The notes under the pieces are model-generated. The model saw only the letters and a list, made by a program, of their open reading frames with translations. It did no database searches and was not told the DNA's origin. The translations under genes were made by a program, and so were the position numbers. Shown here one piece after another: positions 6,928-29,847 of a stretch of 64,000 bases of DNA; the first letter of the stretch is position 1, and each line of letters starts with the position of its first letter. This stretch comes from Pirellulales bacterium (GTDB lineage Bacteria > Planctomycetota > Planctomycetia > Pirellulales > PALSA-1355). Where the stretch lies: NCBI GenBank assembly GCA_022844125.1, contig JALHMI010000018.1, positions 1 to 64,000 on the forward strand. The letters run 5' to 3'.

Positions 6928-8394
6928 TTACTCGTTGAGGTTTCTAACCGGCGCGGGAGCGCCGCGTAGCGCTTCCATCGCGTCGGCCAGCCTTTTGGTT
7001 TGCCGCGTGAGCTCAGCCTGCGCCTCGGCATCGCGTCGCTTGGCCTCGTCGGTGTACATGCCGCCCTCGGTGAATCGCTTGTAGCCGGCTTCCCGATTGC
7101 GCTGTTCGACATAGCTCGGCAAAAGGTTGCCGATGTCGGTGAGCTCTTCGCCCGGCGTGGCCATGCCGAAGGAGCCCCATCGATTCAGCTGGCGCATGCG
7201 CTCATTCCACCAGCCCCCGGCCCATCCAGCGCTCATCTGCTGCCCTTCGAACAGCTCTTCCGCTTTTGCGTAGTCCTTCGCGATTTCTGCGATGGCATTC
7301 TTTTGGGCCGATGCTAAGAGTTCATTCTCGCGGGTGGCCAGGACTGTCTTCCCAGCGGGACTCGCCGCCAGGGCTCGCCGGCGTTCCTCGCCGCCGGCGT
7401 AGGAGCCTTTCATGATGGTCAGCCCGGCCTCGCTCGCGGCGTCCTGCTTGAGCCTGCCGAGGACATCGCTTTCGCCTGGCATGATTGCCTGCGCGACGGC
7501 AGGATCACTGAGCAGCAGTGCGAATCGCTCTTCTCCAGCCCGCGCGGCGGCAAACTTCAACTTAGCCGCTTCCTCAGGGGTGAGCCGGGTGCGCCCTTTG
7601 GTATCAGGAGCCTCGTAGGGGCCCGTGGAGGCAGCGGCAAGCTTGGTGATCAGCTGTGGCGAGTCCAGGCTGGCCGCTTCGATCGCCAGCCCCCAGACGT
7701 AGTCCTCGGGGATGTTGTGCGCGACCAGTTGGCGAATCCCCTGGCCAACTTTCGCGCTCCGCAATTTCTCAAAGTGGCGACCCGCTTGGGCCTGAATCTG
7801 CATCGCCTTTTCCGCGCTCCTCTGAGGCGATGCCTGCGGATTGATGGTGGCGAGTTGACCGGCGAACTCTCCGAGCGATTCTAGGTCGGCCTCGGAGAGG
7901 CCGAACGCTCCTTCTGGGGCGATGGCGCGAACGAGAGCCACTTGCCGTTCGGGACTGACCTTGTAATCCGTTCCTGCGGTGACGCCCCGATAGGCGGCCA
8001 AAGCTTCCGCGCCCGTCGCCCCGGGAATGTTCTTGAGCTGCTGGGCGACCAGCCCGGCGGAGGCGGCGTGTCCGGCCAGGTTGATCTGACGCACGAGCTC
8101 ATGGTTTCCCTCCTTGGCCTTAGCCGCAATGTCGGCCAGCCGCTGCCGCCACTCGTCGTACGCCTTCGTGACGGTCCCGACGGCCGAGCTGACGGTAAGG
8201 TAGCTGGCCCCCAGCGCAGTCACGCCGCGGATCTCGCCAGCGATGTGACTGGAGATCTCATCTCGATCGCGGCGCGACTGGCGGGCAGTGTTCGCGTTCT
8301 GTTCCTGCAGCTTGACGTTCGCCGCATAGAGCTGCTGGTACGCCTGCAAGAGCTGCTGCGGATCGCCCGTGAATTTTGTCGAGACCTGGCCCAT
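6928..8394 (-). CDS. Tail tape measure protein (short)
   Basis: 488 residues, mostly helical and Ala/Gln/Glu-rich, beginning with a coiled-coil-like stretch (LLQAYQQLYAANVKLQEQ) and a small hydrophobic segment (TALGASYLTVSSAVGTV) as in tape measure proteins. It follows the frameshift gene and tail tube gene in the usual order. It is short for a tape measure; at about 1.5 Angstrom per residue it would set a tail of roughly 70 nm. It starts 3 bp after the stop of the -1 frame extension of the gene before it. Confidence 0.75.
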   Translation of the reverse strand: MGQVSTKFTGDPQQLLQAYQQLYAANVKLQEQNANTARQSRRDRDEISSHIAGEIRGVTALGASYLTVSSAVGTVTKAYDEWRQRLADIAAKAKEGNHELVRQINLAGHAASAGLVAQQLKNIPGATGAEALAAYRGVTAGTDYKVSPERQVALVRAIAPEGAFGLSEADLESLGEFAGQLATINPQASPQRSAEKAMQIQAQAGRHFEKLRSAKVGQGIRQLVAHNIPEDYVWGLAIEAASLDSPQLITKLAAASTGPYEAPDTKGRTRLTPEEAAKLKFAAARAGEERFALLLSDPAVAQAIMPGESDVLGRLKQDAASEAGLTIMKGSYAGGEERRRALAASPAGKTVLATRENELLASAQKNAIAEIAKDYAKAEELFEGQQMSAGWAGGWWNERMRQLNRWGSFGMATPGEELTDIGNLLPSYVEQRNREAGYKRFTEGGMYTDEAKRRDAEAQAELTRQTKRLADAMEALRGAPAPVRNLNE

Positions 8395-8397
8395 CGC

Positions 8398-8554
8398 TCA
8401 CCGCACGAAATAGTAGTGATTGCTAACCGCCGTCGCCTTACGTGATTCGCTGGCCGCGATGGCCAGCTCGGCCCGGCTCGGCCGATGCCCGGGCGTCAGC
8501 CCGCGGCACCAGGCGAGGCACTCGGCGAGGGGGGCGACGAGCCCGTTTTTTTTT
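8398..8554 (-). other. Candidate -1 ribosomal frameshift site and C-terminal extension
   Basis: On the minus strand the 0 frame reads CAA AAA AAA ACG across A9 (8546-8554), which contains the canonical slippery heptamer A AAA AAA. A -1 slip yields AAC GGG CTC..., opening 49 codons (LAECLAWCRGLTPGHRPSRA and on to NHYYFVR) that stop at 8398. Just after the A run lies a short stem GGGC-TCGTC-GCCC, and further on CGGGC-TGAC-GCCCG. Slippage by RNA polymerase on A9 is an alternative mechanism giving the same family of products. A plain frameshift mutation or sequencing error in the homopolymer cannot be excluded. Confidence 0.6.
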
Positions 8555-9257
8555 GTGAGTACTCCTCCAAGAGCGGCACGTCCAACAGCAGCTCGAGGAG
8601 CCGCGACCAGTTGCCGCCGGTCACCAGCCGCAGCAGGTTCTGCTCGATCTTTCCGACCCGGTAATTGAGCGCGAGCGCCCCGAGGCACAGCTCCACCAAG
8701 ATTTCGGCCGAAATCGTCGGGTGTTTTTCGCGGTCGAACCAGTGATTCCAACCCTCGGCCGAGAGCTCCCACAGGCGACTCTCGGCGCGGCGCGTTGCGA
8801 CTTGCCCGTCGTCGCCGTACACGAAGTCGTAGGGGAGTTGCGAGCGCTCCTCGCGGATGCTGCGCACGATCGGGATCTTCCACGTCCGGCCGTCCCCCAG
8901 CTCGCACGCGTAGCCGCGCGGCGCACCGATCGCCAGATCCTCGGGCGTCGGCGGGAACTCCGTGTCGAGCCCGACCCAGCAGTCGCAGCCGGCGGGCCGC
9001 TCGTGCCACCGCTGATGGTCGGCGCTGTAGCCGATCCGCACCGGCGCGGGATTGCCGACGACCTGCAGCACCAGTCCCGAGTGGCCGCCCGGTCCGCGGC
9101 CGGGCAACTCGTAGCAACTCGTCTGCGCTTGCACGTCGCTGATGCCGGCGAAGGCGGCGGCCACGCCGCGCTCCGCGAGGAAGCTCATCCGCAGCCGATT
9201 GCGTTCGACCACGGCCGAACTGCGAACGCGCGGGAAGAAATACACCGGGGAGGCCAT
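8496..9257 (-). CDS. Tail gene ending in a -1 frameshift site (0-frame product)
   Basis: 253 residues in the 0 frame, ATG at 9257 with AGGA eight bases upstream. Residues 236-237 are two AAA lysine codons in an A9 run; the 0 frame then gives only a 16-residue Ser/Pro tail. In the -1 frame, translation continues 49 residues to 8398, directly before the tape measure, giving about 286 residues. The position between tail tube and tape measure corresponds to lambda G/GT, the tail-assembly chaperones known for a -1 frameshift. The body (VYFFPRV, CDCWVGLDTEFPPTPEDL) is not obviously homologous to gpG and is larger, so the chaperone role is inference. Confidence 0.65.
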   Translation of the reverse strand: MASPVYFFPRVRSSAVVERNRLRMSFLAERGVAAAFAGISDVQAQTSCYELPGRGPGGHSGLVLQVVGNPAPVRIGYSADHQRWHERPAGCDCWVGLDTEFPPTPEDLAIGAPRGYACELGDGRTWKIPIVRSIREERSQLPYDFVYGDDGQVATRRAESRLWELSAEGWNHWFDREKHPTISAEILVELCLGALALNYRVGKIEQNLLRLVTGGNWSRLLELLLDVPLLEEYSQKKTGSSPPSPSASPGAAG

Positions 9258-20201: not shown

Positions 20202-21542
20202 CTAGCCCCTCGGAGCATCATTTCGGCCGAAATTACGTCGGCGGGCCTTCTTCCCGGTGAATTGCTCCCAGCGCTGGACAATCACGTCGCAATACAGCGC
20301 GTCGATCTCGCACAAAAACGCCCGGCGGCCGAACTGTTCGCAGGCAATCAAGGTCGAACCACTGCCCCCAAACAGATCGAGTACATGCTCGCGGGGGCGC
20401 GACGAGTACTCGATCGCCCGCGCCGCGAGCTCCACCGGCTTCTCAGTTAGGTGGACCATCGATTGCGGGTTGACCTTTTGAATCTCCCAGACGTCGACCG
20501 CGTTGGCCGGCCCGAAGAACCGGTGAGCCGCACCCTCACGCCAGCCGTAGAAGCACCACTCGTGGTTGCCCAGAAAGTCCTTACGGGTCAACACGGGATG
20601 GCCTTTGACCCAGATGATCGCCTGCGAAAAGTACAACTCCGCGGCCTTCATCGCCGGCGGGTAATTCGCGCAGTTCGCATAGCCGCCCCAGATGTAAAAC
20701 GCACGGCCAGGGAGGAGCACCGCCGCGGCGTTGCCAAACCAATCCCGTAGCCGCGCGTCGAACTCCTGGTTCGACAGGTGGTCGTTTTCCAGGGGGCGGT
20801 CCTTGGGACGCAACCGCCTGGTGGTCCCCTTTGCCTTCTCGGGATGCCGCGTAAGGTCGGCTTGCTGCTGGTGTCTGGCGGTATTGCGTCCGCGCAGTCC
20901 CGCCGCGATCGCGTTGTTGCTGCGCGGTTCCAACTTCACGTTGTAGGGTGGGTCGGTGTTGAGTAGATGGACGGGCAAGCCCCCGAGCAGGCGTTTCACA
21001 TCCGCGAGCTTCGCGCTGTCTCCGCAAAGCAACCGATGGTCGCCGAGCGTCCACAGGTCGCCGGGTTTGGTCGTCGCCACGGTCGGCGGCTCCGGGATAT
21101 CGTCGGGGTCGACGAGCCCCGCCTCGGGCTCCAATGGCGGGGCGTCATCAATGATCTGCTGCAAGGCGTCTCGCAGGTTCGCATCCTCAATCTCGCACGA
21201 CGCCAGTAACTTGGCGAGCGCCGCGGCGTCAGTCTCAGCCATCGCACCGAGGGGATCAAACGTAGCGAGAACCTCGGCTGCTTCGGCATCCGAGAGATCG
21301 ACGATTAGCACTGGCACCTTGGCAGTCGGCGTGAGCTCGGCTCGCAGGTGCCCATCGAGCAGTTCGAGCTTGCCGCGCTTCGTTTCGCGGGCGATCAATG
21401 CGCCGACATAGCCGAGTCGTTCCAGCAGCCCGCGAAGTGCGGAACGCTGTGCCTCGCTATGCCTGCGCCAGTTGTTCGGATTGTTACGGAGTTGCCGGGC
21501 TTCTACCCGGCGAAAGGCTTTGATTCGATCACGGATCTGCAT
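20202..21542 (-). CDS. DNA methyltransferase with N-terminal ParB-like domain
   Basis: 446 residues from ATG 21542; the longer frame would need a TTG start. Residues 1 to about 110 resemble the ParB/Srx-type domain often fused to phage methylases (RNNPNNWRRHSEAQRSALRG; KLELLDGHLRAEL). The C-terminal part is a beta-class N4-cytosine/N6-adenine methyltransferase: catalytic motif IV TDPPYNV precedes the AdoMet motif I DLFGGSGSTLIACE, and LTEKPVELAARAIEYSSRPR lies before it. No restriction endonuclease is adjacent, so it is an orphan modifier, probably protecting phage DNA from host restriction. It lies in the packaging region beside a zinc-ribbon gene, which recalls com-mom pairs. Confidence 0.85.
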   Translation of the reverse strand: MQIRDRIKAFRRVEARQLRNNPNNWRRHSEAQRSALRGLLERLGYVGALIARETKRGKLELLDGHLRAELTPTAKVPVLIVDLSDAEAAEVLATFDPLGAMAETDAAALAKLLASCEIEDANLRDALQQIIDDAPPLEPEAGLVDPDDIPEPPTVATTKPGDLWTLGDHRLLCGDSAKLADVKRLLGGLPVHLLNTDPPYNVKLEPRSNNAIAAGLRGRNTARHQQQADLTRHPEKAKGTTRRLRPKDRPLENDHLSNQEFDARLRDWFGNAAAVLLPGRAFYIWGGYANCANYPPAMKAAELYFSQAIIWVKGHPVLTRKDFLGNHEWCFYGWREGAAHRFFGPANAVDVWEIQKVNPQSMVHLTEKPVELAARAIEYSSRPREHVLDLFGGSGSTLIACEQFGRRAFLCEIDALYCDVIVQRWEQFTGKKARRRNFGRNDAPRG

Positions 21543-21601
21543 GGGTCGCCAACCTAGGTTTGCGTAGGTGTGGCGACGTCCCAATCACGTCGTCGTGCTA
21601 A

Positions 21602-25264: not shown

Positions 25265-25654
25265 TTAACGGGCATGCCCCGCCCCGCGTTCCAGGCCGCC
25301 CGGGCCCGGAGGACCCGAAGGGGGGGGCTTTGGGGCAGCCAGCACGGCGCGCACGTCTGCGTGCAGTGCGTCGAGCTTCTTGTGCGTCGTCTCATGGCCC
25401 GCCTGATCGTTGGCCGCGATCCGTTCGAGCGCTGCTGCGTGCTTGGTGCCGTTGGCGGCGTGCTTAGTGTCGTTGGCCGCAAAGGTCCGCGTCATCCGCA
25501 CGTGCGCAACGATCACGCGGTCGGCACGCTTGCCCGACCACTTGACGACTTGCCACAGCGCCCACAGCGACGGCACCAGCACGAGCAGCAGCAGCGCTGG
25601 TGCCAACCCAATCCGCTCGACTGCGTTCACTGCTGATTGAAAGGACTCAGGCAC
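25265..25654 (-). CDS. Single-span membrane protein, holin-like candidate
   Basis: 129 residues with one hydrophobic segment near residues 16-37 (GLAPALLLLVLVPSLWALWQ), then a charged helical region containing an internal duplication (ANDTKHAANGTKHAAALERI) and a Pro/Gly tail. The layout (short N-terminus, one membrane span, coiled-coil tail) fits some holins or spanin-like lysis proteins. It overlaps the DRGH nuclease gene by 8 bp and lies in the lysis-type block. No family was recognised. Confidence 0.55.
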   Translation of the reverse strand: MPESFQSAVNAVERIGLAPALLLLVLVPSLWALWQVVKWSGKRADRVIVAHVRMTRTFAANDTKHAANGTKHAAALERIAANDQAGHETTHKKLDALHADVRAVLAAPKPPPSGPPGPGGLERGAGHAR

Positions 25655-26513
25655 CGTCGGCTGCCTCCAGCTTGGCCTCGACTTCGTCGGGCAGTCTCCA
25701 GAACAGATCGAAGCCCGCCGCGCGTTCGACCTCGTCGACGCTCGTGCGACACTTCGCCTCGTCCGCCTCGGCGCTATTGGGCATCAGCCAGCCCTGCATC
25801 ACCACGGGCTTGTCGCCGCTGAGCAGCAGCACCGCGGCCGCGTACCGCTCGGGCACCCAGACATTGCTCTTGCCGATCGTCCGTACAGTCACCGCCTGAT
25901 CGACGGCCTGGGCATAAACCGGCAGCACGACGATAGCCGCCGTCTTCCGCGAGCGTACCCATTCGCGCACGCCTTCCTCGACTTGCTTCCACGCGCCGCG
26001 ATTCAACTCGGGGTGCTGCGGGGCGATGTTCGAAAGCTTGAAGGTCGCATCGCGATCAGCCTGGCTACCGAAGTACGATGCCGCCAGCAGATGCCCGCGG
26101 TCGAAGCCGCTCCCTTCGTAGTCGGCCAGCGTGGCTCGCCAAGCGGCGTCCACGCGATGATCGGCCATGAAACGATCACGCCGCACCGCGCTCCCCTCGA
26201 GCACGGCGGGCGTGATCACGGCCATCGCCCACGCGGCATTGCGTGCGCGACCGTCGTATTCAAAAGCGATCGGCCCGTTCCACTGCACGGCCGCAGGCGA
26301 ACCGGGAATCGCCGCCGGAAAGCCTAGCGACTCGCAACTCGGTGCATGCTCGTCCGCCGCGCGGGCCGGCGCTTCGACGGTCGCCAGCCAGTAAAGCAGC
26401 CCACCGAGCGTGCCCAGCACGAGCATGACCGCAAACGCACGTCGCGCGACGATCTCCACGTCGCGCGAAAAACCGCCGGGCTCCGCCCAGCGTTGAACAA
26501 CATTAGCTCGCAT
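25647..26513 (-). CDS. Membrane-anchored DNA/RNA non-specific endonuclease (NUC1, DRGH motif)
   Basis: 288 residues. A transmembrane span at about 26-45 (AFAVMLVLGTLGGLLYWLAT) anchors the protein, leaving the rest outside the membrane. The catalytic core shows DRGH at 138-141, FKLSNIAPQHPELNRGAW with Asn162 and Asn171, and an early YDGRARNAAWA strand, all typical of the EndoG/Serratia-type beta-beta-alpha-metal nucleases. It lies between an unknown gene and the holin-like gene. Possible roles are degrading host or competing DNA during lysis or superinfection, both inferred. Confidence 0.85.
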   Translation of the reverse strand: MRANVVQRWAEPGGFSRDVEIVARRAFAVMLVLGTLGGLLYWLATVEAPARAADEHAPSCESLGFPAAIPGSPAAVQWNGPIAFEYDGRARNAAWAMAVITPAVLEGSAVRRDRFMADHRVDAAWRATLADYEGSGFDRGHLLAASYFGSQADRDATFKLSNIAPQHPELNRGAWKQVEEGVREWVRSRKTAAIVVLPVYAQAVDQAVTVRTIGKSNVWVPERYAAAVLLLSGDKPVVMQGWLMPNSAEADEAKCRTSVDEVERAAGFDLFWRLPDEVEAKLEAADGA

Positions 26514-26672: not shown

Positions 26673-27566
26673 CTACACGACCGCCGGACCGATCAGCGTG
26701 GCACCCTTGCCGCCCACGCCGCCAGTCCCCGGAGTACTCGCCTTCGCGTCGAGCGTGTCCTCGCCGCTGATCCCGGTGCCGCCTGGCACCGGCCCGATCG
26801 GATATTGCCGCAGGTTCGGCAGGATCGCGTTGGCCGGAATGCCGTTGTAGAGCGGCCGCAGATCGACCTCGGTCGGAGCCGCAAAGATCGGACCCGGCCC
26901 GTCGAGCGCCTCCATGTTGACAACGCGTTCGTTGGGGAAGTAGGCGTCGTAATGCTCCTTCTTGAACTCGAATGTGTCGGCCTCCAGCGTAGCCCGCTCG
27001 ATGCCCAGCAGCTCGGTTCCCATCCGGATCTTGATCTGCCGAAAGTACTGGTAGATCTCCTGCGAAAACTTCACCGTGATCGTGAGCGGCTGGTTGTTGT
27101 CGGAATGCTGGTAGAAATTCGTCAGCGCCGTCATCACCAGCTCGTTGTACTCCTTCAGCCAGGGGTTTCGAACGAACGGGCCATCGAAGTAAGGCACCGG
27201 ATGAATCGTCCAGATCTTCGGCGCGGGGCGCTGATGGATCGGCTCGACGACGAGCTCGTTTGTGTCCACCATCCGCGCGCTGAGCACCGCCGAGACGCGA
27301 TTACAGAGCTTGCCAATCCGCTCGATCGTGTTGCGTGTTGGGGGCTGCATCCGGGCCGCGTCTGCATGCGTCATGATGAACAGCTGCAGCTTGGCAATCT
27401 GAGCTGCCAGCCCGTGCAGCGGCTGGTTGAGCGTGCCGATCGTTTGGATGTTATCGCCGCCCGTCTCGCTCTTCACGCCGAAGTTGGGGACGCCAAAGCC
27501 GAGCCGATTCCAGGGGTCGACGTTGTACAGCAGCACCGCGTCGGTGCCAAACAGAAACGTACTCAT
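26673..27566 (-). CDS. Hypothetical phage protein
   Basis: 297 residues, ATG 27566 with AAGGAG six bases upstream; the start overlaps the protease stop (TGATG). The first 240 residues are mixed alpha/beta (FGTDAVLLYNVDPWNRLGFG; IYQYFRQIKIRMGTELLGIE); the last 60 are Pro/Gly-rich (VPGGTGISGEDTLDA, TPGTGGVGGKG). No signal peptide or catalytic motif is seen. It lies between the trypsin-like protease and the nuclease, coupled to the protease, so it may be its partner or substrate. Confidence 0.6.
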   Translation of the reverse strand: MSTFLFGTDAVLLYNVDPWNRLGFGVPNFGVKSETGGDNIQTIGTLNQPLHGLAAQIAKLQLFIMTHADAARMQPPTRNTIERIGKLCNRVSAVLSARMVDTNELVVEPIHQRPAPKIWTIHPVPYFDGPFVRNPWLKEYNELVMTALTNFYQHSDNNQPLTITVKFSQEIYQYFRQIKIRMGTELLGIERATLEADTFEFKKEHYDAYFPNERVVNMEALDGPGPIFAAPTEVDLRPLYNGIPANAILPNLRQYPIGPVPGGTGISGEDTLDAKASTPGTGGVGGKGATLIGPAVV

Positions 27567-29167
27567 CACTCACTCCTTGGGTGGACCGGGTCCGTCCAGC
27601 CCAGCGTAGCGCCAGGTGGCAACGGTTCCCGGTAAGGTTGCTTTTCGCTCGCGCTGCTGGCGAACTGTTCATACAGCGACCAGACGCGCGAGATGATCGG
27701 GAGCGCGGGCGGATTCCACTGAGCTTCGCGGCGCAGCGCGGCGACGAGCCGGTTGAACGCGTGATCGGTTACAGGCACCCGAGCAATCTCCAGCCGCGTC
27801 CGTTCGACCGCCTCGACGGGCATGGCGGGGGTGAGCGCCTCCAGCCTCGTCTGGAGCTTCTTTTTCCCCCGCCGCATTACGAGCCAGACGGCCCCGCCGG
27901 CGGCGACTCCGGCTAGTCCGGCCGGCAAACCAAACGAGACTAGCGCCCCGGTGAGTGCCGCGGCCGCACCTTTGCTCAGGACCGATTCGAGCGCCGACGC
28001 TGGACCTTCGGCCGGAGGACCGGCTGCCGCAGGCGCTGCCACACCGGCGGGCGGTCCGGCAGGCGGCGTGATCGTCACCTGCCGCTTTAGCGCTTCGAGC
28101 TCGCTCGTTACTTGTTGCAGCCGGCCTTCGAGCGCGAGCCGCTCCTTGCCGCAGGCCTCGAGCTGCTTACGCGCGCCGTCGAGCTGCGGCAGGATCGCTT
28201 CCGCATCGGCCGTGCGGCGTTCGAGCGCGTCGCGGTCGGCTAGCAGCTTGTCGTGCCGCTGCTGCAGTCGTTGAAGCTCGGGCGACGGTTGCGGAAGGGA
28301 CGGTGCCGGCGGTTGCACGGCCGGAGGACCGGCGGGTGCTTGCGGGTGTGTCGCGTGAGCCGTGGTCCCATTGGCCGGAAGACCGGCTGCCGGAGGCGCA
28401 AACGTCGAAGGTAAACGCTGCGGCGACGAAGTCCCGGCCGGAGGACCGGCTGGCCGCCAGCCGCGACACCGGCCGAGGAATGCCCGCACGCGGCCGCAGT
28501 GCGTGGCACTCGTCAACCCGTCGGCCGTGCCGAACATCACGGCGACGAGCTGGCCGCGCTGGTTCAGAACCGGACCCCCCGAGTCACCGTCCCGCGCCGT
28601 TGCGCGAAACGCCACGAGCTCGTAGGGCGCCTGCTGGCTCGGCGCTTCGTAGCGTAGCATCTGGCCCGTCTGCTGCTCGAGCCGGCCGTTGTTGCCGTAG
28701 CCGGCGAGAGTGAGGAGCTCGCCTAGCTGCGGGGGTTGATCGGCGATCGCCACCGGCGCGACCGGCGGCGTAGCAATCGTGAGCGCCGCCAGATCCCACT
28801 CGGCATCGATGCATTCGACCCGGGCCGGCGAAACGAAACCGCCCGGGAAGCGCACCTCGACGTGCGTCACCGGCTGCTCGGTGGCGTCGGGCGTGACGAC
28901 GTGCCAGTTGGTCACCACCAGCGACTCACCTTGCTCGCCTGCGCCGGGGACAGCCACGAGCGTGCCGCTCCCCAGCGACTGTGTCGCGCCGGACGCGGAG
29001 GGATGTCCCATGAACGCGACCACGCGGCAAATCGGCGACGTGGCGCTGCGCTCTTCCAATGTGTTGTGCATGCGGGCAGGGAGCGCCTGCAGGCCCGGGT
29101 CGGGCTGATTGGCGTGCGAGGGAATCGCCGCCAGTAGTGAGAGCGCGAACAGTTTTAACGCGTTCAT
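27566..29167 (-). CDS. Secreted, membrane-anchored trypsin-like serine protease with coiled coil
   Basis: 533 residues. A signal peptide covers about 1-19. Residues 45-235 are a trypsin-like domain with His89 in VVTNWHVV, Asp125 in EWDLAALT and Ser196 in RDGDSGGPV. A Pro/Ala linker with AGPPAG-type repeats follows; then a coiled coil (DKLLADRDALERRTADAEAI), another AGPPAG-rich linker, a hydrophobic span (LPAGLAGVAAGGAVWLVMRR) and a C-terminal helical domain. The domain order suggests an extracytoplasmic protease tethered to the membrane. It overlaps both neighbours by translational coupling, in the lysis/host-interaction block. A role in lysis or envelope processing is inference. Confidence 0.85.
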   Translation of the reverse strand: MNALKLFALSLLAAIPSHANQPDPGLQALPARMHNTLEERSATSPICRVVAFMGHPSASGATQSLGSGTLVAVPGAGEQGESLVVTNWHVVTPDATEQPVTHVEVRFPGGFVSPARVECIDAEWDLAALTIATPPVAPVAIADQPPQLGELLTLAGYGNNGRLEQQTGQMLRYEAPSQQAPYELVAFRATARDGDSGGPVLNQRGQLVAVMFGTADGLTSATHCGRVRAFLGRCRGWRPAGPPAGTSSPQRLPSTFAPPAAGLPANGTTAHATHPQAPAGPPAVQPPAPSLPQPSPELQRLQQRHDKLLADRDALERRTADAEAILPQLDGARKQLEACGKERLALEGRLQQVTSELEALKRQVTITPPAGPPAGVAAPAAAGPPAEGPASALESVLSKGAAAALTGALVSFGLPAGLAGVAAGGAVWLVMRRGKKKLQTRLEALTPAMPVEAVERTRLEIARVPVTDHAFNRLVAALRREAQWNPPALPIISRVWSLYEQFASSASEKQPYREPLPPGATLGWTDPVHPRSE

Positions 29168-29847
29168 GCGGACACCTGCGGTGGCTCGAAGGGGAGAATC
29201 GTCTTCGGCAACGGCGTACTTGGCGCGGGTAACGCGTGCACCAGGCCGCGGTGCACCAGGTCGAGGCCCGCCGAGTGCTCGAGGTGCGTTGGCTCGACGG
29301 CCCAGTCGGCCAGTCCTGGCACCAGGTCGAACGTGTCACGGTGGCTGCGGGCCGCTTTGCGGAACGTCCAGCACACGCCTTGCGAGCAATGTTTCATTGC
29401 GTCCCACGGGCTCAGCGTCGTGTCGGCCACGTTCCACCAGCGGCTGGCCGCCCAGCGGATGCCCGGCGCATGCAGCGCCGCGCACTTGTAGATCGAGGGC
29501 CAGCCGTAAGCATGCCCGGCTTGCCGGACCATCAGCTCAGCCGCGAATGCGGCGATGTGTGGCGAGCATTTCGGCCGAAATACGTCGATCCGCCCCGGAT
29601 AGTCGCGGACCTGGCTGGAGAGCGTGACGATCCGCCCGCCCTTGAACTCGCGGAACTCGGCCAGCATCAGCACGCGCTGGTTCGAGTTGAGCGCTCCGTG
29701 CCAGAAGGCAATCGCCGCGTGGCTGTACTGCCCGCGGCCGAGGATCGCGATCGGGCTGGCCGGGCTCTTGAACAGCAGCACGTCGCCGTTGTAGATCAAC
29801 GGTCGCGCGGCGCGGTAGAGCGTGGGGCCGAGAACGGGGCCGAGCAT
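29164..29847 (-). CDS. Permuted NlpC/P60 (YiiX-like) cysteine peptidase/amidase, possible endolysin
   Basis: 227 residues. GDVLLFKS at 21-28 and GRGQYSHAAIAFWHG with His43 are hallmarks of the permuted papain-like YiiX/DUF830 group; a Glu lies in AEFREFKGG, and the candidate nucleophile is Cys154 or Cys159 in KHCSQGVCW. No signal peptide is present. It overlaps the start of the trypsin-like protease gene (ATGA). As the first gene of the lysis-type block it is the best endolysin candidate, although members of this family also cleave other amide or thioester bonds. Confidence 0.7.
   Translation of the reverse strand: MLGPVLGPTLYRAARPLIYNGDVLLFKSPASPIAILGRGQYSHAAIAFWHGALNSNQRVLMLAEFREFKGGRIVTLSSQVRDYPGRIDVFRPKCSPHIAAFAAELMVRQAGHAYGWPSIYKCAALHAPGIRWAASRWWNVADTTLSPWDAMKHCSQGVCWTFRKAARSHRDTFDLVPGLADWAVEPTHLEHSAGLDLVHRGLVHALPAPSTPLPKTILPFEPPQVSA

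Follow-up and report, generated by a model that had tools for sequence, protein, structure and literature searches.

A probable -1 frameshift gene ahead of the tape-measure gene in prophages of Planctomycetota

The tail module and its neighbours

The minus strand of the 64-kb stretch of DNA analysed here, hereafter the window, carries the tailed-phage module of a virus resident in a planctomycete. The host is assigned to Planctomycetota by the domain PSD1, to which its genome has 43 matches and 14 control genomes have none. Its genes follow the order GpA-type terminase, lambda-type portal, S49 protease-capsid fusion, p307, two small ORFs, the frameshift gene that is our main subject, and tape measure. 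The S49 head-maturation protease and the capsid protein are fused in a single 945-aa ORF (17140-14303, minus strand). Four further minus-strand ORFs near the terminase gene (20202-21584, 25647-26513, 27566-29167 and 29164-29847) were annotated as DNA methylase, DNA/RNA non-specific endonuclease, trypsin-like protease and C92-like amidase, the latter just under the cut-off.

By its predicted structure, the 307-aa product of p307 (11526-10603, minus strand) is the major tail protein, a tail tube of the double-domain type known from T5 (pb6) and P74-26. The AlphaFold2 model (pLDDT 89.8) aligned with the major tail protein of SH-Ab15497 at a VIA Z-score of 18.0 (rmsd 3.2, 270 aligned residues), and scored 17.9 against the P74-26 tube and 17.4 against the T5 tube. 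By sequence, p307 matched nothing in PHROGs or in the phage records. Since no gene for a sheath was noticed between those for capsid and tube, the tail seems to be non-contractile. At the other end of the segment considered here, the tape-measure protein (488 aa, 8394-6928, minus strand) has a homologous ORF in related loci, and the ORFs at this position in loci L056, L060 and L067 match the PHROG "tail length tape measure protein".

Between tube and frameshift gene, also on the minus strand, lie a 154-aa ORF (10587-10123) and an Ala/Pro-rich ORF of 242 aa (10079-9351). Neither had a Pfam or PHROG match, nor a phmmer homologue in related loci, and both are lineage-specific as far as seen. A tube homologue is found upstream of the frameshift gene in related loci too, and the tape-measure gene is next downstream in every locus where this could be read, in most of them no more than about 30 nt past the -1 stop. 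Across loci, no gene other than the frameshift gene was found to be conserved in the interval from tube to tape measure. The position before the tape measure that the first-pass annotation had assigned to it is thereby confirmed, with the tube upstream and the tape measure downstream.

Reading frames at the A9 run

The frame-0 ORF (9257-8496, minus strand) begins with ATG, comprises 253 codons and would encode the short, G-like product. Near its 3' end lies a run of nine A residues (8554-8546, minus strand), across which frame 0 reads TCA CAA AAA AAA ACG, such that the run contains an in-frame slippery heptamer, A AAA AAA, at 8553-8547. Frame 0 terminates 16 codons past the heptamer. The -1 frame (8547-8398) continues for 49 codons and a stop, with the translation NGLVAPLAECLAWCRGLTPGHRPSRAELAIAASESRKATAVSNHYYFVR, and would form the T-like part of a long product with a predicted total of 286 aa; a tryptic peptide of the predicted -1 tail is, for example, NGLVAPLAECLAWCR. 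The -1 frame closes with TGA (8400-8398), which is followed by GCG and then by the tape-measure ATG at 8394, so that 3 nt separate the two. The site, the two reading-frame ends and the gap had been described exactly at first pass, and lie on the minus strand.

The openness of the -1 frame is in itself weak evidence, since open -1 frames are frequent by chance at 64% GC. The A9 run is the sole homopolymer of at least nine residues within the window. A second in-frame A AAA AAA was noted in a 951-aa ORF downstream (5980-3125, minus strand), within an A8 run (4085-4078) behind which the -1 frame is open for 77 codons; this site may be a chance occurrence in GC-rich DNA.

A family of homologues across Planctomycetota

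Whole-genome searches of Planctomycetota with the frame-0 protein or its profile as query yielded 40 homologues, and thus 41 genes with the window's own, at identities to the window protein of mostly about 20-37%. Of these 41 genes, 32 combine a slippery heptamer in frame 0, close to the 3' end, with an extension that is always in the -1 frame; 27 of the 32 have an A run (A7-A10). Both the frames and the site noticed in the window are therefore retained in most of the family, and this extends to homologues found once the hypothesis was fixed (n=11), seven of which have site and extension and four neither. The site is also constant in its position within the protein, with mostly about 215-265 residues before it and 34-46 residues (mostly 37-42) between it and an NY/NF motif. 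Large size relative to usual tail-assembly chaperones, remarked on from the window alone, hence holds for the family.

The extensions (29-63 residues) share in most of the 32 genes a W..G....P[ST] motif. Its W, G and P were invariant in the first 15 aligned extensions, and the W is absent from a few found later (L037, L040). In the closest pair of homologues, L038 and L039, the extensions are 85% identical, and their differences fall 4, 3 and 12 times at the first, second and third codon positions of the -1 frame, respectively. The -1 extension is hence protein-coding and conserved, as in pre-tape-measure frameshift genes of the lambda G/GT type.

Chance expectation was estimated from 78 control genes in related loci, which in 28,825 codons contained a single in-frame A AAA AAA and seven in-frame GGGAAA; in the family genes themselves, the 7,812 codons that precede the site contained neither. 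The presence of A AAA AAA or G GGA AAN at one place in 32 of 41 homologues is thus beyond chance.

Homopolymers are error-prone and the window comes from a draft genome of 27 contigs (6.4 Mb), so that the apparent shift could be a sequencing or assembly error, the true gene having one A more and a single ORF, or else the mark of a broken prophage gene. One homologue has the look of such a broken prophage gene: L005 (G012:C7) has an A8 run, is N-terminally truncated and carries the extension motif in the +1/-2 frame, out of register. No other copy showed a +1 or -2 shift. For the family, sequencing error is refuted by a -1 offset that recurs in 32 genes behind A7, A8, A9, A10 and GGGAAAC/A alike. 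These genes lie in different genomes, several of which consist of a single contig; the frame-0 protein is moreover intact and its neighbours are collinear. The 31 homologues that share place and direction of the shift with the window gene come from many families across the phylum, so that the site is not a mutation of a single strain, and in none of the 40 homologues are the two parts joined in one frame. Error or decay at the window's site is accordingly a scarcely credible explanation.

Eight of the 41 genes have neither slippery site nor extension (L007, L023, L026, L041, L071, L084, L087, L088). Some of these cluster on the tree, and they are apparent losses of the long product, which suggests that this product is dispensable in some lineages.

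Slippery sites, stimulators and the mode of slippage

Transcriptional slippage, reviewed in PMC5009743, had been put forward at first pass as a second mechanism. RNA polymerase slipping on the A9 run would produce some mRNAs that have gained one A or lost two, and the long product would then arise by ordinary translation. The run lengths on which bacterial polymerases slip include A9, and runs of A9 or longer are found at 23 of the 32 sites. The A9 members, the window's included, also lack significant downstream structure. Against this, the same -1 extension stands behind GGGAAAC or GGGAAAA in five homologues (L018, L020, L022, L025 and L031) and behind A7 in one, and the slippery types interchange inside one clade (L018-L022 and L025), which mixes GGGAAAC, A7 and A8. 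On the tree as a whole A-run sites occur throughout, and GGGAAA requires three changes. All 32 sites, finally, are in the ribosomal register. Since the polymerase would not be expected to slip on GGGAAAC, the conserved property is the frame-0 ribosomal heptamer X XXY YYZ, and since slippery types exchange on the tree, ribosomal -1 frameshifting is indicated as the general mechanism and is favoured by these sequence patterns over polymerase slippage. The latter is quite improbable as the explanation of the gene, but a share of it at the window's own A9 run is possible.

Ribosomal frameshifting might be stimulated differently at the two kinds of site. In four of the five GGGAAA members the 40 nt downstream are more structured than expected (z -2.4 to -5.1), and in L018 a 50-nt window is needed for a comparable signal (z -3.5 to -4.4). 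The mean z in the A9 members is 0.4 (GGGAAA versus A9, p=0.003). The link between GGGAAA and structure is suggestive, with window sizes picked post hoc and five members. In the window gene, a downstream stem-loop folds, but not beyond shuffled sequences, and was rejected as the stimulator. A candidate stimulator of the kind known from dnaX is instead a Shine-Dalgarno-like GGAGGAG (8568-8562, minus strand), 7 nt upstream of the A run, which gives the best anti-Shine-Dalgarno pairing among all in-frame positions of the gene. Such pairing is enriched upstream of the sites family-wide (p=3e-5, uncorrected for relatedness or for codon use, the codons being Glu-rich).

Products and probable role of the frameshift gene

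The frame-0 protein was modelled by AlphaFold2 with high confidence (pLDDT 90.7) as a mixed alpha/beta N-terminal part (residues ~1-158) followed by C-terminal helices (~160-238). Profile searches of Pfam and PHROGs with 18 frame-0 proteins and 15 extensions gave no credible match. A sequence search of the PDB found nothing, and a Foldseek search of PDB and BFVD with the whole frame-0 model yielded no significant match. The best VIA Z-score of the whole model was 2.8; known chaperone folds were not listed in that comparison, which excludes nothing. Pattern-based scans, whose reach is that of close relatives, found no homologue among isolated phages (50,697 phage records), in IMG/VR or in genome_contigs, and the family and its host range were not found in the databases and open-access papers searched. 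No sequence or fold link to a known tail-assembly chaperone family was thus found in these searches.

The gene could conceivably undergo genuine frameshifting and yet encode something other than chaperones, for instance a structural component of the tail made in two lengths, such as a subunit of the tail tip or a tube initiator. The size of the frame-0 protein, larger than lambda gpG, its confident model without known-fold match and the eight members without extension would agree with such a component. The gene sits, however, where the -1 frameshift tail-assembly chaperones lie in long-tailed phages (PMC5009743), and rare slippage giving two lengths suits a catalytic or chaperone role, so that we consider a structural component unlikely.

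In our opinion the gene is very probably a pre-tape-measure -1 frameshift gene whose two products, made by ribosomal slippage, serve as chaperones of the G/GT type. It likely works like G/GT, given that it shares their position and design and that no other gene was found to be conserved between tube and tape measure; the chaperone function proposed by the first-pass annotation is deduced by analogy from these same features. Two proteins would arise from one start. Most ribosomes would stay in frame 0 and release the 253-aa product, and a minority would slip back by one base where the A9 run presents two successive Lys codons (AAA AAA), perhaps aided by the GGAGGAG sequence, read the 49 additional codons and finish the 286-aa product shortly before the tape-measure gene begins. 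If lambda gpG and gpGT are a guide, the part shared by both products would attach to the tape measure. The rare -1 tail would recruit the T5/P74-26-type tube protein p307, which would then polymerise along the tape, and neither product would stay in the virion. The frames, the site and its conservation, the exchange of slippery types and the neighbouring genes can be read directly from the genomes; that slippage occurs, with what efficiency, that it is ribosomal in the window member and that the products are chaperones are what we infer from them.

As a kind of system, the lambda-type -1 frameshift is well known; none of the databases searched describes the protein family. These findings add prophages of Planctomycetota to the range of the lambda-type frameshift ahead of the tape measure. 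Gene callers restricted to one frame would miss the extension. The family offers a natural series of A7, A8, A9, A10, GGGAAAC with hairpin, and no site at all, in which the strength of slippery sites can be tested against that of stimulators, and also when the long chaperone becomes dispensable. We may speculate, with considerable doubt, that these chaperones form a family that spans the phylum, arose independently and converged on the lambda-type frameshift, its extra N-terminal domain matching no known fold. The shift signal would alternate between a bare A9 run (ribosomal slippage, perhaps with polymerase slippage in addition) and GGGAAAC with a hairpin, and several lineages would have lost the long product, their tail assembly no longer needing it.

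Comparison with known systems

The E. coli dnaX gene has an A-rich tandem-Lys slippery site with a Shine-Dalgarno-like stimulator upstream and a hairpin downstream, and there the shift yields a shorter product. The window gene resembles it in its A-rich tandem-Lys site and in the Shine-Dalgarno-like sequence upstream; it differs in that its shift would yield a longer product and in having no significant hairpin. The dnaX case is discussed in PMC5009743.

Thermus phage P74-26 gp94 and T5.143/T5.142 occupy the same position between tube and tape measure, next to a tube of the same type as p307. As relatives, gp94 and T5.143 were rejected for want of a profile match to the family, and none of gp94, T5.143 and T5.142 showed a slippery heptamer with a long -1 extension behind it. 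Phage P2 E/E+E', the other pre-tape-measure frameshift genes of Xu, Hendrix and Duda, and the annotated frameshifted chaperones of actinobacterial phages show the same layout as the window gene, one that tailed phages retain without sequence similarity (PMC5009743, PMC10885494). The planctomycete family is separate from these, being unmatched in the 50,697 phage records or PHROGs.

Lambda gpG has about 140 aa, and the slippery heptamer of lambda is GGGAAAG. The window protein differs from gpG in its length of 253 aa with an extra alpha/beta part at the N-terminus, and no sequence similarity to G/GT was found; further differences are the extension of 29-63 aa in the planctomycete family and the lack of a downstream hairpin at its A-run sites. 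Both lambda gpG and gpGT, the rarer of the two, bind to the tape measure; it is the T part that binds to the tube protein, and the virion contains neither product (PMC5009743). Low sequence similarity notwithstanding, long-tailed phages widely retain this frameshift (PMC5009743), and the likeness of the window gene to G/GT is one of arrangement: the gene lies between major tail protein and tape measure, the -1 shift falls close to its 3' end, where the canonical heptamer is A AAA AAA or G GGA AAC in the planctomycete family, and the long product ends beside the start of the tape measure.
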